In this document: positions 27,919-36,110 of the stretch, one piece after another
Position numbering within the stretch: position 1 is the stretch's first letter
How the letters are laid out: every line of letters begins with the position of its first letter
Assembly: GCA_903894995.1 (NCBI GenBank)
Contig: CAITSG010000476.1
Coordinates: 1 to 51,511 of the forward strand
DNA length: 51,511 bases
Reading direction: 5' to 3'
Source of the DNA: an uncultured Burkholderiales bacterium
GTDB lineage: Bacteria > Pseudomonadota > Gammaproteobacteria > Burkholderiales > Burkholderiaceae_C
Position numbers and translations under genes: made by a program
Notes under the pieces: model-generated
Seen by the model: only the letters and a program-made list of their open reading frames with translations
Database searches by the model: none
Told to the model about the DNA's origin: nothing

Positions 27919-29091
27919 TCAGTCCGTTTTGGAGGGGCAGGCGCTGGCCGACTGGATCACGCCGCCACCCAAACACACTTCACCATCGTAAAGCACCGCG
28001 CTTTGGCCGGGCGTGACAGCCCATTGAGGATCGCTGAACGAGAGCTCAAAGCCCGCTGACCCATCGGGCATGCTCAGCGCTTGGAGGTCACATGGCGCAT
28101 CAGTTTGACGGTAGCGGGTTTTGGCGGCATAGCTGCTCGGTGTGGGGTCGGTGCCTGCGCACCAGCTCACGTCGGTGGCTTGCAATTGGGGCGACAGCAA
28201 CCAAGGATGGTCATGGCCTTGCACCACCCACAAGGTGTTGTTGGGGATGTCTTTGCGGGCCACAAACCAAGGGGTGTGCTCCCCCGCGCCCCGCAATCCG
28301 CGTGCTTGTAAGGCTTTCATGTCCGCGCCTTTGGCTTTGATGCCGCCAATGCCCAGGCCCTGGCGCTGACCCAAGGTGTAAAAGCTCAGGCCCACATGTT
28401 GGCCAATGGTGCGCCCTGATGGGTCTTTGATCGGACCGGGTTCTTTGCTGATGTAGCGGTTCAAAAACTCGCGAAAAGGCCGCTCGCCGATGAAGCAGAT
28501 GCCGGTCGAGTCTTTTTTCCGGGCGTTGGGCAGGCCGATCTCTTCGGCAATGCGGCGCACCTCGGTCTTGTGCAGCTCACCGACCGGGAACAGGGTTTTG
28601 GACAGCTGTGCCTGGTTCAGGCGGTGCAAAAAGTAGCTTTGGTCTTTGCTGGGGTCCAGGCCCTTGAGCAGCTCGTGGCGGCCCGTCGCGGCATTCAGCC
28701 GAACTCGGGCGTAATGGCCGGTGGCGATTTTTTCGGCCCCCAAGCGCATGGCGTGGTCCAGAAACGACTTGAACTTGATCTCGGCGTTGCACAGGATGTC
28801 GGGGTTGGGCGTGCGCCCGGCTTGGTATTCGCGCACAAACTCGGAAAAAACGCGGTCTTTGTAATCGGCCGCAAAATTGACATGTTCAATCTCGATGCCC
28901 AGCACGTCGGCCACAGCCGCGGCGTCGACGAAGTCAACGTTCGATGAGCAATATTCGCTGTCGTCGTCGTCTTCCCAGTTTTTCATGAAGATGCCGATCA
29001 CCTCATAGCCTTGTTGCTTGAGCAGGTGAGCGGTGACAGCGGAATCGACGCCGCCGGACAAACCGACGACCACACGGTTGGGATGGGACAT
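27919..29091 (-). CDS. mnmA: tRNA 2-thiouridine(34) synthase MnmA
   Basis: Thiolates U34 of the Lys, Glu and Gln tRNAs, using sulfur passed by the Tus relay and ATP. 390 residues with the PP-loop [10 protein letters not shown] (residues 9-18), the first catalytic Cys in [13 protein letters not shown], the second in [13 protein letters not shown], and [17 protein letters not shown] in between; the C-terminal beta-barrels follow. It ends [10 protein letters not shown]. Convergent with tcuB and divergent from the lytic transglycosylase gene. In E. coli it is linked to the Nudix gene nudJ; here a NudJ-like gene lies about 4.7 kb away beyond the acetylation operon. Confidence 0.96.
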
Positions 29092-29173: not shown

Positions 29174-29902
29174 ATGCCCCTCCACTGCACTTGGTGCCCC
29201 CCCATTCGAACGGTCTTGCGCGACATTGCGCAGGGCTTGTTCCTTGTCACTCACAGTGGTTTGGCCATGGTGGGCTTGAGTGCGACTGCGGTGGTGTTGG
29301 CGCTGTGGTGGCATCCTCAGGGCTTGCACATGGCCGAGGAAGCCTTGTTCAATTGGCTGCGTGATCGCCAAGTGCTGATTTCCTGGTTGCCACAAAACAC
29401 GGCTGATCGTGCCACGGCGGTTGATCTGAAAGACCTGCCACGCCCGCAAGCGGCCGTGGCCACTTGGCTGGGTCAGAAATACAAAATTGCGCCCGAGCCC
29501 TTGGCGGCATTGGTGGCCGAGGCCCATGTCTTGGCCAAACGGTACAAGTTAGCCCCCCATTTGATCTTGGCGGTCATGGCCATCGAGTCCAACTTCCATC
29601 CTTATGTACAAAGCCATGCCGGGGCCCAAGGCCTGATGCAGGTGATGACCGCGATTCACGTCAAGCGCTATGAAGCCTATGGGGGCAAATTGGCCGCTTT
29701 CGACCCGATCACGAATTTGCGCGTGGGCGTGGCTGTTCTTTACGATTCGATCAAACTCAAGGGCGGTTCTCTGGAGGATGGTTTGCTCTTTTATTTGGGG
29801 GGCGACGCTGTCACTGATGATGGTGGTTACGTGGCCAAAGTCCTGGCCGAGCAGGCCCGCCTTGACCAAGTGGCTGCAGGTGTGAACGTGCCCCTTCAAT
29901 GA
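29174..29902 (+). CDS. Lytic transglycosylase, membrane-anchored SLT domain
   Basis: 242 residues. One membrane segment near residues 28-47 should anchor the protein in the inner membrane with its SLT domain in the periplasm. The catalytic motif is AVMAIESNFHPYVQSHAGAQGLMQVM, with Glu138 as the acid/base, followed by the family segments DPITNLRVGVAVLYD and YLGGD. It cleaves between MurNAc and GlcNAc and releases 1,6-anhydroMurNAc, a reaction blocked when the MurNAc C6 hydroxyl is acetylated. It heads an operon with acetylation and deacetylation genes. A TATAAT lies about 22 bases before the ATG, without a clear -35 box. Confidence 0.87.
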   Translation: MPLHCTWCPPIRTVLRDIAQGLFLVTHSGLAMVGLSATAVVLALWWHPQGLHMAEEALFNWLRDRQVLISWLPQNTADRATAVDLKDLPRPQAAVATWLGQKYKIAPEPLAALVAEAHVLAKRYKLAPHLILAVMAIESNFHPYVQSHAGAQGLMQVMTAIHVKRYEAYGGKLAAFDPITNLRVGVAVLYDSIKLKGGSLEDGLLFYLGGDAVTDDGGYVAKVLAEQARLDQVAAGVNVPLQ

Positions 29903-29912
29903 GCTTGAGTCC

Positions 29913-31325
29913 ATGAGTTTTGTTTCGCCGGAATTCGGACTTTTTTGCCTGCTGTTTTTGCCCGCTTATTGGGCATTGGCCAGCAGGCCAGGCTGGCAGC
30001 GGGGTTTGCTCATTCTGACGGGCTACGGTCTGTACGCCACTTGGGTGCCCAAGTTTGCAGTTGTTTTACTCGTTTACAGCACCGCCATGTGGGCATTGGG
30101 GCGGCGCATGCAAAGCGTGCCGGACAGTCGTCGCCCTTTATGGCTGGGTTTGTGGCTGGCGGGCTCTTTTTTGTTGTCGCTCAAATACTATGAATTTGTG
30201 CGCGAGACCTTCCAGAAAATGTTGCAGGGCATGGGTTTTGATGCCTTGTTGCCTGTGCTGGATGTGGTGACCCCTGTGGGGGTGTCTTTTTTCACCTTCC
30301 AGGCGGTGACCTATTTGGTCATGGTCGGGCGGCAGCCGGGTTTGGCGCGTTCTTGGGCAGATGTGCTGCTGTTTTTGAGTTTTTGGCCCACTTTGTTTGC
30401 GGGCCCTATTTTGCGGGCCGAGCATTTTTTTGCCCAACTCGATGAGCGCGATCCGCAACTTCGCGTGGGCCTTCCCAAACAATCCTGGCTGGCGCTTTAC
30501 CTCATCGTTTTGGGTTTGGTGCAAAAAGTGGTCCTGGCCTCGAGCTTGTCGGCCCAATGGGTTGACCCGGTGTACAAATTTCCTGAACAATTCAGCAGCC
30601 TGGCTTTGATGGCCGCCATGCTGGCTTACAGCTTGCAGATTTTTCTGGATTTTGCAGGCTACACCTCGATCGTGACCGGCTTGGCCTTGTTGTTGGGTTT
30701 CACTTTGCCCGTGAATTTTCGGCAGCCCTATTTGGCACGCAATCTTTCAGACTTCTGGTCACGCTGGCATGTGTCTTTGTCCAGCTTTATCCGCGACTAC
30801 ATTTACATTCCCTTGGGCGGCAATCGCCGGGGCTTTGCGCGCACCCAGCTCAATGTGCTGCTGGGCATGCTCATCAGTGGCTTGTGGCATGGGGCCAACT
30901 GGACCTTTGTGGTGTGGGGCTTGTTGCACGGCTTAGGGGTCATTGTGGTGAACGGGGCACAGCGCTTGGGCATGCCTTTATGGCCTCGTTGGGCTGCACA
31001 AATGATGACTTTTGTGTTTGTCAGTGTGGCTTGGGTCTTTTTCAGGGCTGATTCGGTGTCTCATGCCTTGCAAATGCTGCTGGGTTTGTTTGTCAACCCC
31101 AAAGGCTTTTGGGCCGACGACATTCCGCAGGCCTGGGGCTTGGTGTTGATCGCGTTGTGTATAGGGGGACTTAGCCCGTGGGCCGCTGATTTGCAACGCA
31201 AAGCAACCGTTTACTTGGAGCGCTTGAGCCCTCGTTGGGGTGTGATGGTGTTGACCATTTTGCTTTGCGCGGTGCTGTTTTATGGTCCCGAAGGGGTGCC
31301 CAATTTCATTTATTACCGGTTTTGA
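29913..31325 (+). CDS. patA: MBOAT acyltransferase, probable peptidoglycan O-acetyltransferase PatA
   Basis: 470-residue membrane-bound O-acyltransferase with about eleven membrane segments, in the AlgI/PatA/DltB group. NLSDFWSRWHVSLSSFIRDYIYIPLGGNR is the conserved MBOAT core, and LWHGANWTF carries the catalytic His. Such proteins move acetyl groups from acetyl-CoA across the inner membrane to an extracytoplasmic partner. It begins ten bases after the lytic transglycosylase and its stop abuts the PatB-like gene by one base. The PatB-like and Ape1-like neighbours make peptidoglycan the most likely acceptor; alginate or another polysaccharide is possible, but no alginate genes are nearby. Confidence 0.82.
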   Translation: MSFVSPEFGLFCLLFLPAYWALASRPGWQRGLLILTGYGLYATWVPKFAVVLLVYSTAMWALGRRMQSVPDSRRPLWLGLWLAGSFLLSLKYYEFVRETFQKMLQGMGFDALLPVLDVVTPVGVSFFTFQAVTYLVMVGRQPGLARSWADVLLFLSFWPTLFAGPILRAEHFFAQLDERDPQLRVGLPKQSWLALYLIVLGLVQKVVLASSLSAQWVDPVYKFPEQFSSLALMAAMLAYSLQIFLDFAGYTSIVTGLALLLGFTLPVNFRQPYLARNLSDFWSRWHVSLSSFIRDYIYIPLGGNRRGFARTQLNVLLGMLISGLWHGANWTFVVWGLLHGLGVIVVNGAQRLGMPLWPRWAAQMMTFVFVSVAWVFFRADSVSHALQMLLGLFVNPKGFWADDIPQAWGLVLIALCIGGLSPWAADLQRKATVYLERLSPRWGVMVLTILLCAVLFYGPEGVPNFIYYRF

Positions 31326-31326
31326 G

Positions 31327-32319
31327 ATGGCCCATCGTTTGTCTGCACGTCAATTGAGCTGGATGCTTCCTGCGGTCGCTCTGATGGTGACCCTGTGCTG
31401 GCTCACCTCGCTTGAAAGGTATTTAGGCGTGAGGTACCACGTCAGCTTGGAAGCTGCGCTGCCTGAAGCCCTGTCGAACGCTTTGTTTACCCCGTCGCGA
31501 TGGTTGGATGACCGGGTGCGGGCTGGCGGTTCGCGGCCTTTGTTTCGCCTGGCGTGGCCATCCTCCAATGAAGAGCTTGAGCAAACACCTGTGGTGGTTC
31601 GGACTCCTCAACCGCCACAGTTACAAGACTTGCCCCCAGCTTTGCCCAAAGGGCAGTTCATGCCCAGTTTGGCGCAGCAAAAACTCAAACCTGGTGTGCA
31701 GCGCATTTTGCTGGCCGGAGATTCGATGATGCAAGGTGTGGCCCCCTTGCTGATGCGTGATCTGACACGTTTGCACCCCGATTGGGAAGTGCATGATCTG
31801 AGTCGTCAAAGTACCGGCTTGACTGTGCGGCGGTATTTCGACTGGCCTCAACGCATCGTGGAAGAAATGGATGCCAAGAGCTTGAGCTTGGTGGTGATTT
31901 TTTTGGGGCCCAATGACCCTTGGGACTTGGTGGTCGATGGGCAGCGCCATGGATTTCCATCACCGGGCTGGGCGCTGAACTATGCCTTGCGGGTGGACGA
32001 GGTGGTGGCTGCAGCGGTTGAGCGCCAAGTCCGGGTGATCTGGATGGGCTTGCCCTCCATGCGAGAGGGGCGGGTACGCGATGGCGCAGTGTTGCAAAAC
32101 CACATTTTTCATGCTCGCGCCCAAAATTGGGGCACTGATTACCTGGCCACCGAGCCTCTCATCGGCGTGTTGTCTGAGCCATTTCAGAAATTCAAACTGG
32201 GCGCAGACGGTCAGCCCGTGAACTTGCGAGCTGAAGACGGCATTCACATGACGCCCTCTGCCCTGCGCTTGGTCAAACAAGCCTTGCTTGAACACATTCA
32301 AAAGGCAGCGCAACCATGA
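31327..32319 (+). CDS. patB: SGNH (DUF459) protein, probable peptidoglycan O-acetyltransferase PatB
   Basis: 330 residues. An N-terminal signal anchor (about 12-28) is followed by an SGNH domain: LLAGDSMMQG (Ser133), FLGPNDPWD, and EDGIHMTP with Asp304 and His307 near the C-terminus. As I recall, the triad of Neisseria PatB is Ser133, Asp302 and His305, a striking match in position. PatB takes the acetyl group from the MBOAT protein PatA and places it on MurNAc C6. ATGA at its end overlaps the start of the next gene. Without context it would be annotated only as a DUF459/GDSL hydrolase. Confidence 0.8.
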   Translation: MAHRLSARQLSWMLPAVALMVTLCWLTSLERYLGVRYHVSLEAALPEALSNALFTPSRWLDDRVRAGGSRPLFRLAWPSSNEELEQTPVVVRTPQPPQLQDLPPALPKGQFMPSLAQQKLKPGVQRILLAGDSMMQGVAPLLMRDLTRLHPDWEVHDLSRQSTGLTVRRYFDWPQRIVEEMDAKSLSLVVIFLGPNDPWDLVVDGQRHGFPSPGWALNYALRVDEVVAAAVERQVRVIWMGLPSMREGRVRDGAVLQNHIFHARAQNWGTDYLATEPLIGVLSEPFQKFKLGADGQPVNLRAEDGIHMTPSALRLVKQALLEHIQKAAQP

Positions 32320-33758
32320 AAAAGTCTTGGGTTCCGGGCTTGTTGGCCCCTGTGGCCTTGTGTTTTTTCAGTGGCGTTTTGGTGGCCCAAACATTGCCCT
32401 CGGTGCGAGCCGATGTGCAGCAAACCATCTTGCCCGTCCAGACACGCCGTGGTGCGCCTGACTTGCAATGCAGTCAGCGGCCAACTGCACCTCGGGCCAA
32501 TACAACCCGTGAGGTGGACCCCCAAGAAGTACCCGATGACGTGGATGTTCAAACCCAGTTAAGGCAGTTTCAAGATGTTTTGCCCAACGCCCCATTGGCT
32601 GAGCTGCGCCCACAAAAACGCACTTTGTGGCAAGCCCAAGCGGGCCAACCATTGCGCGTGGGCATATGGGGCGACAGCCATCTGGCGGCTGCTTTTTGGA
32701 GCCAGGAATGGGCGCGTTTGTCTCAGTTGCCCCCCGACGCTGTGGGCAGCCGGTTCTTGCCAGCCAGCATGAACAGGCCTGGGGTGCGCTTGCCCTTGCG
32801 CAAAAGCTGTGTGGGAGCGGGGTGGCAATACGAGCCCGCGCATGCCATGCCTGCAGGCGCCAGTGAGCCCGGGCCGGGTTTGGTCAATATGTGGACGCAG
32901 GGCAAGGATGCCTGGATGTCGCTGGACGTTCGCAATGCCACGGCTCAAGCCGACAAGTCTCAGTTGCGCTTGTTGTATCAGCAAACCCGAGATCCGATCA
33001 GTTTGGCCATTCGCGTCGATGGAGGTGAGGAGCAACGCATCGATTTGCAGGGCCGCGAAGGCCCAGCTGTGCTGGATTTGGTGGGCGACGATGTGATGTC
33101 CACCCTTGAGTTGCGCGTGCTTGAAGGCCCGTTCAGGTTGAATGGCCTGGAATTGCCACTGCCCGTGGACATCCGTCTGCAACTCGATGTGTTTGGATAC
33201 CCGGGGGCCACTGTGGCCGGCTGGCGTCAGGTGCAAGCGACGGCGATGGCGCCTTGGTGGGGAGCCTCAACTTACGATGTGGTGGTGATGGCCTTTGGCA
33301 CCAATGAGGGCAATGTGCAGCCATTCGACGCAGCGGCCTACACCCAGAGCTTGCGTTCATCGGTGGCTGCTTGGCGGCAACTTTTTCCTCAGGCCACCTG
33401 CTTGCTGGTGGCACCAGGAGATCGGGGAATATTGGTTCGGCGGTCTCAAAAAAACCGGTCTGGTGCTGTTCATGGCACCAGACCCGTCCCTGCAAAATTA
33501 CCAGATTTTCTCAAATTTACCCGGGTTCACGCTGAAATTGGGCGCATTCAAAAGCAGGTGGCGCAAGCCCACGGGTGCCACTTTTGGAGCATGCTCAGCG
33601 CCATGGGCGGGGCTGGCGGTTCTTACCGATGGGCCCAACAAAACCCGGCTTGGATGGCCAAGGATTTGATCCATTTCACAGTGCCAGGCTACCAGCGCTT
33701 GGCGCAGTCCATGGCACAGGATTTGGGCTGGAATGCTTCTGTTTTTGCCCCTAAGTAG
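32316..33758 (+). CDS. ape1: SGNH esterase, probable O-acetylpeptidoglycan esterase Ape1
   Basis: 480 residues with a signal peptide (KKSWVPGLLAPVALCFFSGVLVAQ). The catalytic motifs are widely separated: GIWGDSH (Ser121), VMAFGTNEG near residue 330, and DLIHFTVPGY (Asp450, His453). Between the first two lies a roughly 150-residue beta-rich stretch, in the place where Neisseria Ape1 carries an inserted CBM35-like domain. Ape1 removes acetyl groups from peptidoglycan so lytic transglycosylases can act. Last gene of the operon, translationally coupled to the PatB-like gene. The assignment rests on motif spacing and context; another polysaccharide esterase is the alternative. Confidence 0.74.
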   Translation: MKKSWVPGLLAPVALCFFSGVLVAQTLPSVRADVQQTILPVQTRRGAPDLQCSQRPTAPRANTTREVDPQEVPDDVDVQTQLRQFQDVLPNAPLAELRPQKRTLWQAQAGQPLRVGIWGDSHLAAAFWSQEWARLSQLPPDAVGSRFLPASMNRPGVRLPLRKSCVGAGWQYEPAHAMPAGASEPGPGLVNMWTQGKDAWMSLDVRNATAQADKSQLRLLYQQTRDPISLAIRVDGGEEQRIDLQGREGPAVLDLVGDDVMSTLELRVLEGPFRLNGLELPLPVDIRLQLDVFGYPGATVAGWRQVQATAMAPWWGASTYDVVVMAFGTNEGNVQPFDAAAYTQSLRSSVAAWRQLFPQATCLLVAPGDRGILVRRSQKNRSGAVHGTRPVPAKLPDFLKFTRVHAEIGRIQKQVAQAHGCHFWSMLSAMGGAGGSYRWAQQNPAWMAKDLIHFTVPGYQRLAQSMAQDLGWNASVFAPK

Positions 33759-33798: not shown

Positions 33799-34293
33799 TC
33801 AAGCCTTCAGATGCGGTAAATCCTTGACCGCAGGGTCGGTGTAAATGACCCCGAGTGGGTAACGCTGCCCGGCCAGATGGTCTTCAATGCATTGCAAAAC
33901 CAGAGGGCTTCTGTGACGGGATGCGCTCGCCCTGATTTCCTCGGGTGTCATCCAGAGGGTGCGCTCGATGCCTTCATCAAGTTGTCGACCCTTTTGCAAT
34001 TCACCCAATTCACCACAAAACGCCATTCGGACGTAGGTCACGTCCTCTGCCGTGGCAAGGCGTTGAAAACGGGACAGGTAAATACCCACTAAAGCTGTGG
34101 GGTTAAAAAGGTGCGCTGTCTCTTCCAAAGTCTCTCGGGCACAAGCCTCGGCAGGCGACTCCCCAGGGTCCAAATGCCCTGCGGGGTTGTTCAGGCGCAG
34201 GCCTTCTGGGGTGTGTTCTTCGATCAACAAGTAGCGGCCTTCTTTTTCAACGATGGCGGCGACGGTGACATTGGGTTTCCAGCGTGTATCCAT
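33799..34293 (-). CDS. Nudix hydrolase, NudJ-like
   Basis: 164-residue cytoplasmic pyrophosphohydrolase. The Nudix box is GHLDPGESPAEACARETLEETAH (split: GHLDPGE at 39-45 and RETLEETAH at 53-61), correct except that the final Gly of the consensus is Ala60. The opening KPNVTVAAIVEKEGRYLLIEE and the PAGHL phrase match NudJ, which hydrolyses thiamine-precursor and other nucleoside pyrophosphates. The start MDTRWKPNVT is chosen by similarity; the frame is open much further upstream but without family similarity. Divergent from pntA across 215 bases that hold no recognised element. Substrate not deducible. Confidence 0.88.
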   Translation of the reverse strand: MDTRWKPNVTVAAIVEKEGRYLLIEEHTPEGLRLNNPAGHLDPGESPAEACARETLEETAHLFNPTALVGIYLSRFQRLATAEDVTYVRMAFCGELGELQKGRQLDEGIERTLWMTPEEIRASASRHRSPLVLQCIEDHLAGQRYPLGVIYTDPAVKDLPHLKA

Positions 34294-34508
34294 CTGATGA
34301 ATTATCAAGGGTGGTGTGCCTGCATGGTCGCTGTCAGGTCTTTTTGGGAAAAGACGTGTCATTTTTGGATTTGGATCAACAGGGGTTGGTGTTGGATTGT
34401 TCAACTTGAAACAGGGGTTGAGTGCTTCAGGGCAGGGCAAAATCAGGTGGACATCGGTTAAGCTGGAATAATTGATTATTTTTTTGTGGATTGAGTGAGG
34501 AGACAAAC

Positions 34509-36110
34509 ATGCAAACTGGCGATACAGCCCCAACGCCTCAGCGCATTGGCGTGCCGCGAGAGATTTTTCCCGGTGAAAAACGGGTGGCCACGGTCCCCGA
34601 TGCGGTGACCAAACTGGTCAAGCTCGGCTTTGCCGTGGTGGTGGAACAAGGCGCGGGCGAACTCGCTGACTTGTCGGATGCGGCCTATGTCGAAGCCGGT
34701 GCCACGATTGCGCCGAGCGCGACGGCCTTGTGGAGCGGCAGCGACATCGTCTTTAAAGTGCGTGCCCCCACGCCCGACGAAGTGGCGCTGATGCATGAAG
34801 GCCAGACCTTGATTGGCTTTTTGTGGCCCGCCCAAAACCCCGATTTGATGCAGCAGCTCGCGGACAAAAAGGTCACCGCGCTGTCGATCGACGCACTGCC
34901 CCGCACATTGAGCCGCGCCCAGAAGATGGACGCGCTGACCTCCATGGCGGGTGTCAGCGGTTACCGCGCGGTGGTGGAAGCCGCCAACGCCTTTGGCCGT
35001 TTCTTCAACGGCCAGATCACGGCCGCGGGCAAAGTGCCCCCCGCCAAAGTGTTCATCGCCGGTGCCGGTGTGGCCGGTTTGGCCGCCATTGGCGCAGCCG
35101 CCAGCCTGGGTGCCATCGTGCGCGCCAACGACACCCGCGCCGAAGTGGCCGACCAAGTGGTGTCGCTGGGCGGTGAGTTCGTCAAAGTGGACTATGAAGA
35201 AGAAGGCTCGGGCGGCGGCGGTTACGCCAAGGTCATGAGCGAAGGCTTTCAGGCCGCGCAGCGCGAGATGTACGCCAAACAAGCCAAAGAGTGCGACATC
35301 ATCATCACCACCGCGCTGATTCCCGGCAAGCCCGCGCCCAAGCTGATCACCGCCGCGATGGTGCAAAGCATGAAGCCCGGCAGTGTGATCGTGGACATGG
35401 CCGCCGAGCAAGGCGGCAACTGCGAGTTGACCGAACCCGGCAAGGCCGTGGTCAAGCACGGTGTGACCATCGTGGGTTACACCGACCTGGCTTCCCGCAT
35501 GGCGCGCCAGTCGTCCACCCTGTACGGCACCAACTTGTTCCGCCTGACCGAAGAGCTGTGCAAGACCAAAAATGGCGTGATCAACGTCAACATGGAAGAC
35601 GACGCCATTCGGGGCCTCACGGTCATCAAAAACGGTGAAATCACCTGGCCTGCACCGCCATTGGTGGTGGCCCCCAAGCCAGCCCCTAAGCCCGCTGCCG
35701 CGCCTGCCGCCAAAAAAGGCCACGGCCACGGGGAGCCATCCGGCCCCATGCCGGTGGGCCAGTTGCTCATCGTGTCAGCGGTCGCTGCTGTGCTGCTGGT
35801 GCTGGTGGGCGCGTATGCGCCTGCTGCTTTCCTGTCGCACTTCACGGTGTTTGTGTTGGCCTGCTTTGTGGGCTACATGGTGGTCTGGAACGTCAAGCCC
35901 GCGCTGCACACCCCGCTCATGAGCGTGACCAACGCGATCAGCTCGATCATCGCTATCGGTGCGCTGGTGCAGATCTCGCCTTTGGCTGCAGCTGGGCGTC
36001 CCAATACGCTGATCGCCATCTTGGCCTCTTTGGCCCTGGTGCTCACCGCCATCAACATGTTTGGCGGCTTTGCCGTCACCCAGCGCATGCTGGCGATGTT
36101 CCGAAAATAA
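34509..36110 (+). CDS. pntA: NAD(P) transhydrogenase subunit alpha
   Basis: Membrane proton-translocating transhydrogenase, NADH-binding subunit, 533 residues. The soluble domain I has [19 protein letters not shown] at the start, the nucleotide motif [17 protein letters not shown] (about 178-194), [18 protein letters not shown] and [19 protein letters not shown] Pro/Ala-rich linker and a His/Gly patch lead to four C-terminal membrane helices, so this is the fused PntAA-PntAB form. GAGG eight bases before the ATG supports the start. The partner pntB follows after an unusual 142-base spacer with three tandem hairpins. Supplies NADPH using the proton gradient. Confidence 0.95.

Follow-up and report, generated by a model that had tools for sequence, protein, structure and literature searches.

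A putative peptidoglycan O-acetylation operon behind a resident lytic transglycosylase gene in Limnohabitans

How do bacteria restrain their lytic transglycosylases from wrecking the cell wall? This open question is raised by a locus in a 51,511-nucleotide stretch of DNA from an uncultured Burkholderiales bacterium (contig CAITSG010000476.1)—hereafter called the window—where the gene of a lytic transglycosylase (LT) is followed by three genes of acetylation-related families (Table 1). The best overall explanation, which we regard as very probable, is that these three genes form a patA-patB-ape1 operon for reversible peptidoglycan O-acetylation, an accessory cassette behind a resident membrane-anchored LT. 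O-acetylation as a brake on LTs has been proposed since at least 2005 (PMC1199599). The gaps between the four genes are 10, 1 and −4 bases. A previous sequence-only reading of this DNA had reported the same packing, and the open reading frames (ORFs) and Pfam matches bear it out, as does its recurrence across the genus.

Identity of the four genes

The first gene encodes a predicted membrane-anchored lytic transglycosylase. Its SLT domain scores 56.6 bits, as compared to the Pfam cut-off of 21.3, one N-terminal hydrophobic stretch is visible by eye at residues ~27-46, and Glu138 in ESNFHPYVQSHAGAQGLMQ occupies what we take to be the catalytic position of the family. The MBOAT protein possesses a conserved His326 in LWHGAN and the C-terminal hexapeptide FIYYRF, which includes Tyr467. 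Among 27 genus relatives, the C-terminus is FIYYRF in 25 and FIYFRF in two. The Tyr of this hexapeptide carries the acetyl group in PatA, and the motif is common to other MBOAT–SGNH systems (PMC12148441). The hexapeptide therefore supports the mechanism, not the target; judged from sequence, the MBOAT family, the His residue and the Tyr hexapeptide cannot separate PatA from other MBOATs.

Of the two SGNH proteins, P0003 has N-terminal helices, and its Ser133/Asp304/His307 triad, correctly identified by the sequence-only reading, is invariant in 16 aligned sequences. Two of the Neisseria positions quoted in that reading agree with Ser133 and His305, the residues given for gonococcal PatB in PMC12148441, which also describes Ser161 in block II, Asn196 in block III, and a hydrophobic wall of Leu250 and Ile304. 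In our alignment, numbered by hand, the equivalents are Ser162, Asn196, Val250 (Leu to Val) and Ile306. Moreover, the top five structural matches of the predicted P0003 fold are all PatB chains, by a wide margin. P0004 has a signal peptide, recognized by eye, and a domain inserted in its SGNH core. It aligns with Ape1 across the whole chain, including this inserted carbohydrate-binding-like domain, and its Ser121/Asp450/His453 triad is invariant in 15 aligned rows. The top three matches of the predicted fold are all Ape1 entries, again by a wide margin. In both proteins the serine comes first (S133 before D304/H307, and S121 before D450/H453), as opposed to the permuted block order of AlgX and DHHW proteins (PMC9487903). 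AlgX and AlgJ are not among the 50 matches listed for either model, which does not by itself exclude a family outside those matches. Sequence and predicted fold thus both group the SGNH proteins with PatB and Ape1, the earlier names of the three acetylation genes were correct, and the trio reads as an O-acetylpeptidoglycan (OAP) operon.

Relatives of P0004 (loci L070 and L072) differ in a Lys/Ala-rich insert, which can reach ~60-70 residues, at a site (~377-400 in P0004) that is short in the window. A terminator-like element, a ten-pair inverted repeat with a T run after it on the minus strand, lies within ape1 in this length-variable loop (33457-33484).

The trio resembles the Neisseria-type cluster patA-patB-ape1 (PMC1199599; review, PMC6174289) in its order of MBOAT, DUF459 SGNH and GDSL SGNH genes, and in its families, folds and triads. 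PMC1199599 reports that pat, ape2 (later patB) and ape1a follow one another in a strict order, and already proposes acetyl turnover as a means of LT control. The difference is the LT gene, here 10 bases before patA; the available parts of PMC1199599 name other neighbors, such as a “nearby cell wall hydrolase” in Zymomonas mobilis. Our literature searches, with most subscription papers outside their reach, turned up no account of an OAP operon that begins with an LT gene, and nothing bearing on peptidoglycan O-acetylation in Limnohabitans. Within the literature available, the new element is the leading LT, while the cluster, its gene order and the idea of LT control by acetyl turnover were known before.

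Table 1. Genes of the locus in the window, its flanks, and the alternative module at the same site in other genomes
Feature	Position	Strand	Description
Predicted lytic transglycosylase (LT)	29174..29902	+	242 aa; SLT PF01464 2.3e-15, residues 121-207
PatA-type MBOAT acetyltransferase (predicted)	29913..31325	+	470 aa; MBOAT PF03062 6.7e-28
PatB-type peptidoglycan O-acetyltransferase (predicted), P0003	31327..32319	+	330 aa; DUF459 PF04311 9.9e-53
Ape1-type O-acetylpeptidoglycan esterase (predicted), P0004	32316..33758	+	480 aa; Lipase_GDSL_2 5.9e-12
MnmA-type tRNA modification enzyme	27919..29091	-	Pfam tRNA_Me_trans; divergent from LT; presumably mnmA
NUDIX protein	33799..34533	-	Convergent flank; downstream edge of accessory interval
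Pyridine nucleotide transhydrogenase subunit	34491..36110	+	Flank; presumably PntA type (pntA)
Alternative module	G151 L118:6331-9706 with L217:261-3424; G170 L224; G195 L119/L218; G179 L223; G200 L216		
SGNH gene between LT and alternative module	L119:5845-6996	-	
SGNH gene between LT and alternative module	L223:6216-7286	+	
SGNH gene between LT and alternative module	L118:5087-6351	-	Two ORFs

Distribution of the trio and of neighboring transglycosylases

We surveyed 90 genomes of Limnohabitans (the genus set) and 150 genomes of the family. PatB (P0003) matches 29 of the 90 genus genomes, the window's own included, and 61 lack the trio. The matched genomes include named isolates, and we therefore rejected the idea that the trio is a one-genome oddity or an assembly artefact. 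The window's assembly (3.92 Mb in 558 contigs) contains five SLT matches, one DUF459 match and one MBOAT match.

The LT lies immediately upstream of patA in 28 of the 29 trio genomes. Gaps were measured in 28 genus loci besides the window, with start codons picked by script. The LT–MBOAT gap is 10 bases in 18 of the 26 measurable loci, 9 in seven and −4 in one; the MBOAT–PatB gap is 1 in 19 of 27 loci; and the PatB–Ape gap is −4 in 25 of 28. Since this spacing is kept across the genus, the four-gene packing exceeds chance. G225, a candidate second exception to the LT–patA adjacency, proved to be a contig break: mnmA-LT-MBOAT ends contig C44, and PatB-Ape is on C192.

The four-gene order, for which a survey of the Comamonadaceae had been suggested, is thus conserved in Limnohabitans, and within the 150 family genomes it narrows to this genus. 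DUF459 is matched at E 1e-3 or better in 27 of the 150 family genomes, and strongly (E 4.7e-53 or lower) in three, two of which are Limnohabitans. The third, G126 of another genus, was rejected as a relative system (MBOAT 38%, DUF459 27%, no LT or Ape match within 12 kb) and excluded from the gene-order counts. Its MBOAT and DUF459 genes form a pair (L032:4881-7783), and the DUF459 protein carries a long Pro-rich tail, possibly reflecting another acetylation target.

Do LTs adjoin OAP genes elsewhere? In the best 80 of 255 relatives, where SLT genes were sought by motifs and a small hidden Markov model, an LT adjoins the OAP cluster in 32 loci. These include 25 of the 27 Limnohabitans-type loci; in the remaining two, L151 and L159, the sequence begins at the cluster or inside it. 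In L152, from a metagenome-assembled genome titled Nitrosomonadales, the LT overlaps patA by 4 bases and a helicase gene takes the place of mnmA. In two Rhodocyclales loci (L162 and L163), the LT lies upstream of the OAP genes on the same strand, and in four loci of Oxalobacteraceae type (L167, L174, L176 and L185) it is convergent behind ape. Pfam confirms the SLT domain for five of these seven outside LTs (L152, L162, L163, L167 and L174). The Rhodocyclales and Oxalobacteraceae LTs match those of Limnohabitans and other Comamonadaceae at 30-47% and form separate branches, and the adjacency of LT and OAP genes may therefore have arisen more than once.

Two further arrangements were observed among the Oxalobacteraceae-type loci. 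In L167 (9529-12695), L174 and L176, the convergent LT gene is joined by a small SGNH gene and one for an MltD-like LT, forming a wall-enzyme cluster behind patB-ape. In L167, L174, L175 and L185, the PatB-Ape pair stands with a sole MBOAT match ~4 kb away on the opposite strand, adjoined by a weak SGNH match.

An alternative module in the interval behind the LT

In four Limnohabitans genomes (G151, G170, G179 and G195), a different set fills the space from the LT to NUDIX/pntA. It comprises, in this order, an SGNH gene, a glucosaminidase gene (PF01832), and genes of an MBOAT, a DHHW protein (PF14286), an Ape1-like SGNH protein and a second glucosaminidase-like protein. In G179, the first glucosaminidase gene is visible only partly, next to a run of N. 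In a fifth genome, G200, the alternative module converges on the LT, and the trio is on another contig, which starts 40 bases before patA and continues to NUDIX and pntA.

The MBOAT of this module matches that of the window at 30-32%, and the best Protein Data Bank match of its Ape1-like protein is Ape1 (4k3u, 5.7e-19). The DHHW protein matches 4nzk (8.6e-43) and Bacillus cereus PatB1 (1.3e-10). The product of the SGNH gene next to the LT shows a weak LysM match of 16.5 bits, below the cut-off. A similarity of the Ape1-like protein in L217 to recA spans only 32 residues and was taken as chance.

DHHW is found in five of the 90 genus genomes, always on the contig of the LT and within ~3.5 kb of it. 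In a search of 399 genomes sampled from the order it matched none; no control genome matched either, so that absence is not established. PatB occurs in 29 genus genomes, DHHW in five and both in one, and mutual exclusion of the two modules therefore cannot be claimed.

PMC9487903 treats the DHHW proteins as a family of secondary-wall-polymer acetyltransferases, with PatB1 homologs listed from Bacilli and Clostridia. The B. cereus system likewise pairs an MBOAT with an SGNH acetyltransferase and has DHHW relatives at this Limnohabitans site; it differs from the window's trio in that PatB1 is circularly permuted and acetylates a secondary wall polymer, and no DHHW/PatB1 part is present in the window. 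We tentatively suggest, as a somewhat doubtful extension, that the interval behind the LT serves specifically to house modules for peptidoglycan O-acetylation, either PatA-PatB-Ape1 or the DHHW set with its Ape1-like lipoprotein; that the latter is a second, undescribed Gram-negative system with a PatB1-type enzyme; that in both a glycan cutter leads and an Ape1-type esterase ends the set; and that the LT forms a physical or regulatory unit with the acetyl cycle. If the DHHW module does act on peptidoglycan, it would represent a second Gram-negative acetylation route.

Neighbor or partner of the acetyl cycle

Is the LT a partner of the trio, or merely its neighbor? Several observations weigh against the favored explanation of the locus. 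First, 86 of the 90 genus genomes encode the LT (57% identity or higher), as compared to 29 for PatB. The mnmA-LT adjacency persists in all 20 of the trio-less loci that we read (from the 61 trio-less genomes), of which 17 are free of trio genes over the stretch and three contain a different MBOAT. Second, G200 does not have the trio immediately after the LT: no LT end is recognizable by eye in the 40 bases 5′ of patA, and the mnmA-linked LT is on a different contig. Third, among the best 80 of 255 relatives, no SLT gene was found in 46 of the 53 non-Limnohabitans loci, some of which are cut by contig ends. The only further SLT-type genes there are three MltD-like ORFs, ~1 kb past the LT in L167, L174 and L176; the Oxalobacteraceae LT thus stands among cell-wall genes and is weaker as independent evidence. 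Fourth, a consensus scan of 5.4 kb found no sigma-70-like promoter upstream of the LT. Its single match falls inside patA, with 1.9 matches expected in shuffles, and the promoter and terminator scan says nothing either way on the operon. Finally, the sole NCBIfam match of the MBOAT is DltB, far under the equivalog cut-off, and P0003 scores 133 bits against the NCBIfam PatB cut-off of 580; by this measure, it is a predicted family member outside the curated PatB equivalog group.

On a tree of LT and MnmA from 46 genomes, the trio label needs eight changes, at least five of which are forced by well-supported branches. The trio is an accessory module, lost or gained repeatedly behind the resident LT. 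The LT is the resident gene because it is core in the genus, stands beside mnmA without the trio, and stays while the trio changes. Its distances correlate with those of the three trio proteins (r 0.92, 0.95 and 0.84; MnmA, 0.59 to 0.72), which would fit joint vertical descent, with MnmA slower and less informative. The earlier claim that the LT belongs to a self-contained acetylation cycle is therefore unsupported as stated.

These data leave considerable room for the explanation that the OAP operon is genuine and that the cassette landed, or was kept, behind a housekeeping LT without any regulatory or physical link, which we judge a serious possibility, if somewhat short of an even one. The prevalence of the LT, its homologs in 149 of the 150 family genomes, its place beside mnmA in the trio-less loci, and the repeated gains or losses all fit it. 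Against it stand the 9- or 10-base LT–patA gap in 25 of 26 loci, the order kept in L152 at a different genomic place, the LTs of other branches beside OAP genes in Rhodocyclales and Oxalobacteraceae, and the acetylation-like but non-orthologous module that can occupy this site. A further explanation, conceivable though we lean against it, is that the main use of the trio is protection against outside lysozymes or predators; Ape1 would then free the cell's own LTs to act, and the operon LT would be incidental. The anti-lysozyme role of O-acetylation is published (PMC6174289, PMC1199599), and the patchy presence among species fits a niche-dependent trait; this explanation is compatible with a reversible O-acetylation operon and leaves it standing. 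It is very unlikely that the trio has an exopolysaccharide or some other envelope polymer as its target, as in alginate or cellulose acetylation: such systems have similar MBOATs, as the DltB match illustrates, and share the C-terminal peptide, but we rejected this target on the family, block order and predicted folds of the SGNH proteins, and the operon is led by the gene of a wall-cutting enzyme.

Under the favored explanation, a reversible O-acetylation operon behind a resident LT, the cycle would proceed as follows. PatA would move the acetyl group from acetyl-CoA to Tyr467 of its C-terminal peptide, and PatB would pass it through Ser133 to the MurNAc C6 hydroxyl, from which Ape1 would strip it again. 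The LT would require a free C6 hydroxyl, so that acetylation would shield the glycan from the LT and Ape1 would re-expose the sites. A shared transcript would lead to the co-expression of the cutter, the shield and the shield-remover. The families, triads, folds, conserved spacing and accessory distribution were computed here, while the chemistry and the target are drawn from published work on relatives.

That the LT and the trio lie on one transcript is likely. Their true functional coupling is a closer call, which we place just under the balance point. It is a plausible proposal that the gene arrangement makes testable and does not prove. In Neisseria meningitidis, LtgA and Ape1 form a complex, stimulate each other and act jointly on acetylated peptidoglycan (PMC7083599). 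In that species the LT is an outer-membrane lipoprotein, and the pat operon comprises patA, patB and ape1 (PMC7083599), whereas the predicted LT of the window carries a hydrophobic stretch at its N-terminus. Two observations speak against pure accident: other LTs flank OAP genes, and a non-orthologous module lies beside the same LT. The coupling proposed in the sequence-only reading is only partly supported, and is weakened by the core status of the LT and its persistence without the trio.

A cutter, its brake and the release of that brake seem to be combined in one operon. Moreover, Limnohabitans includes sister species that share this cutter and differ in whether the brake follows it, which makes the coupling testable by comparison.
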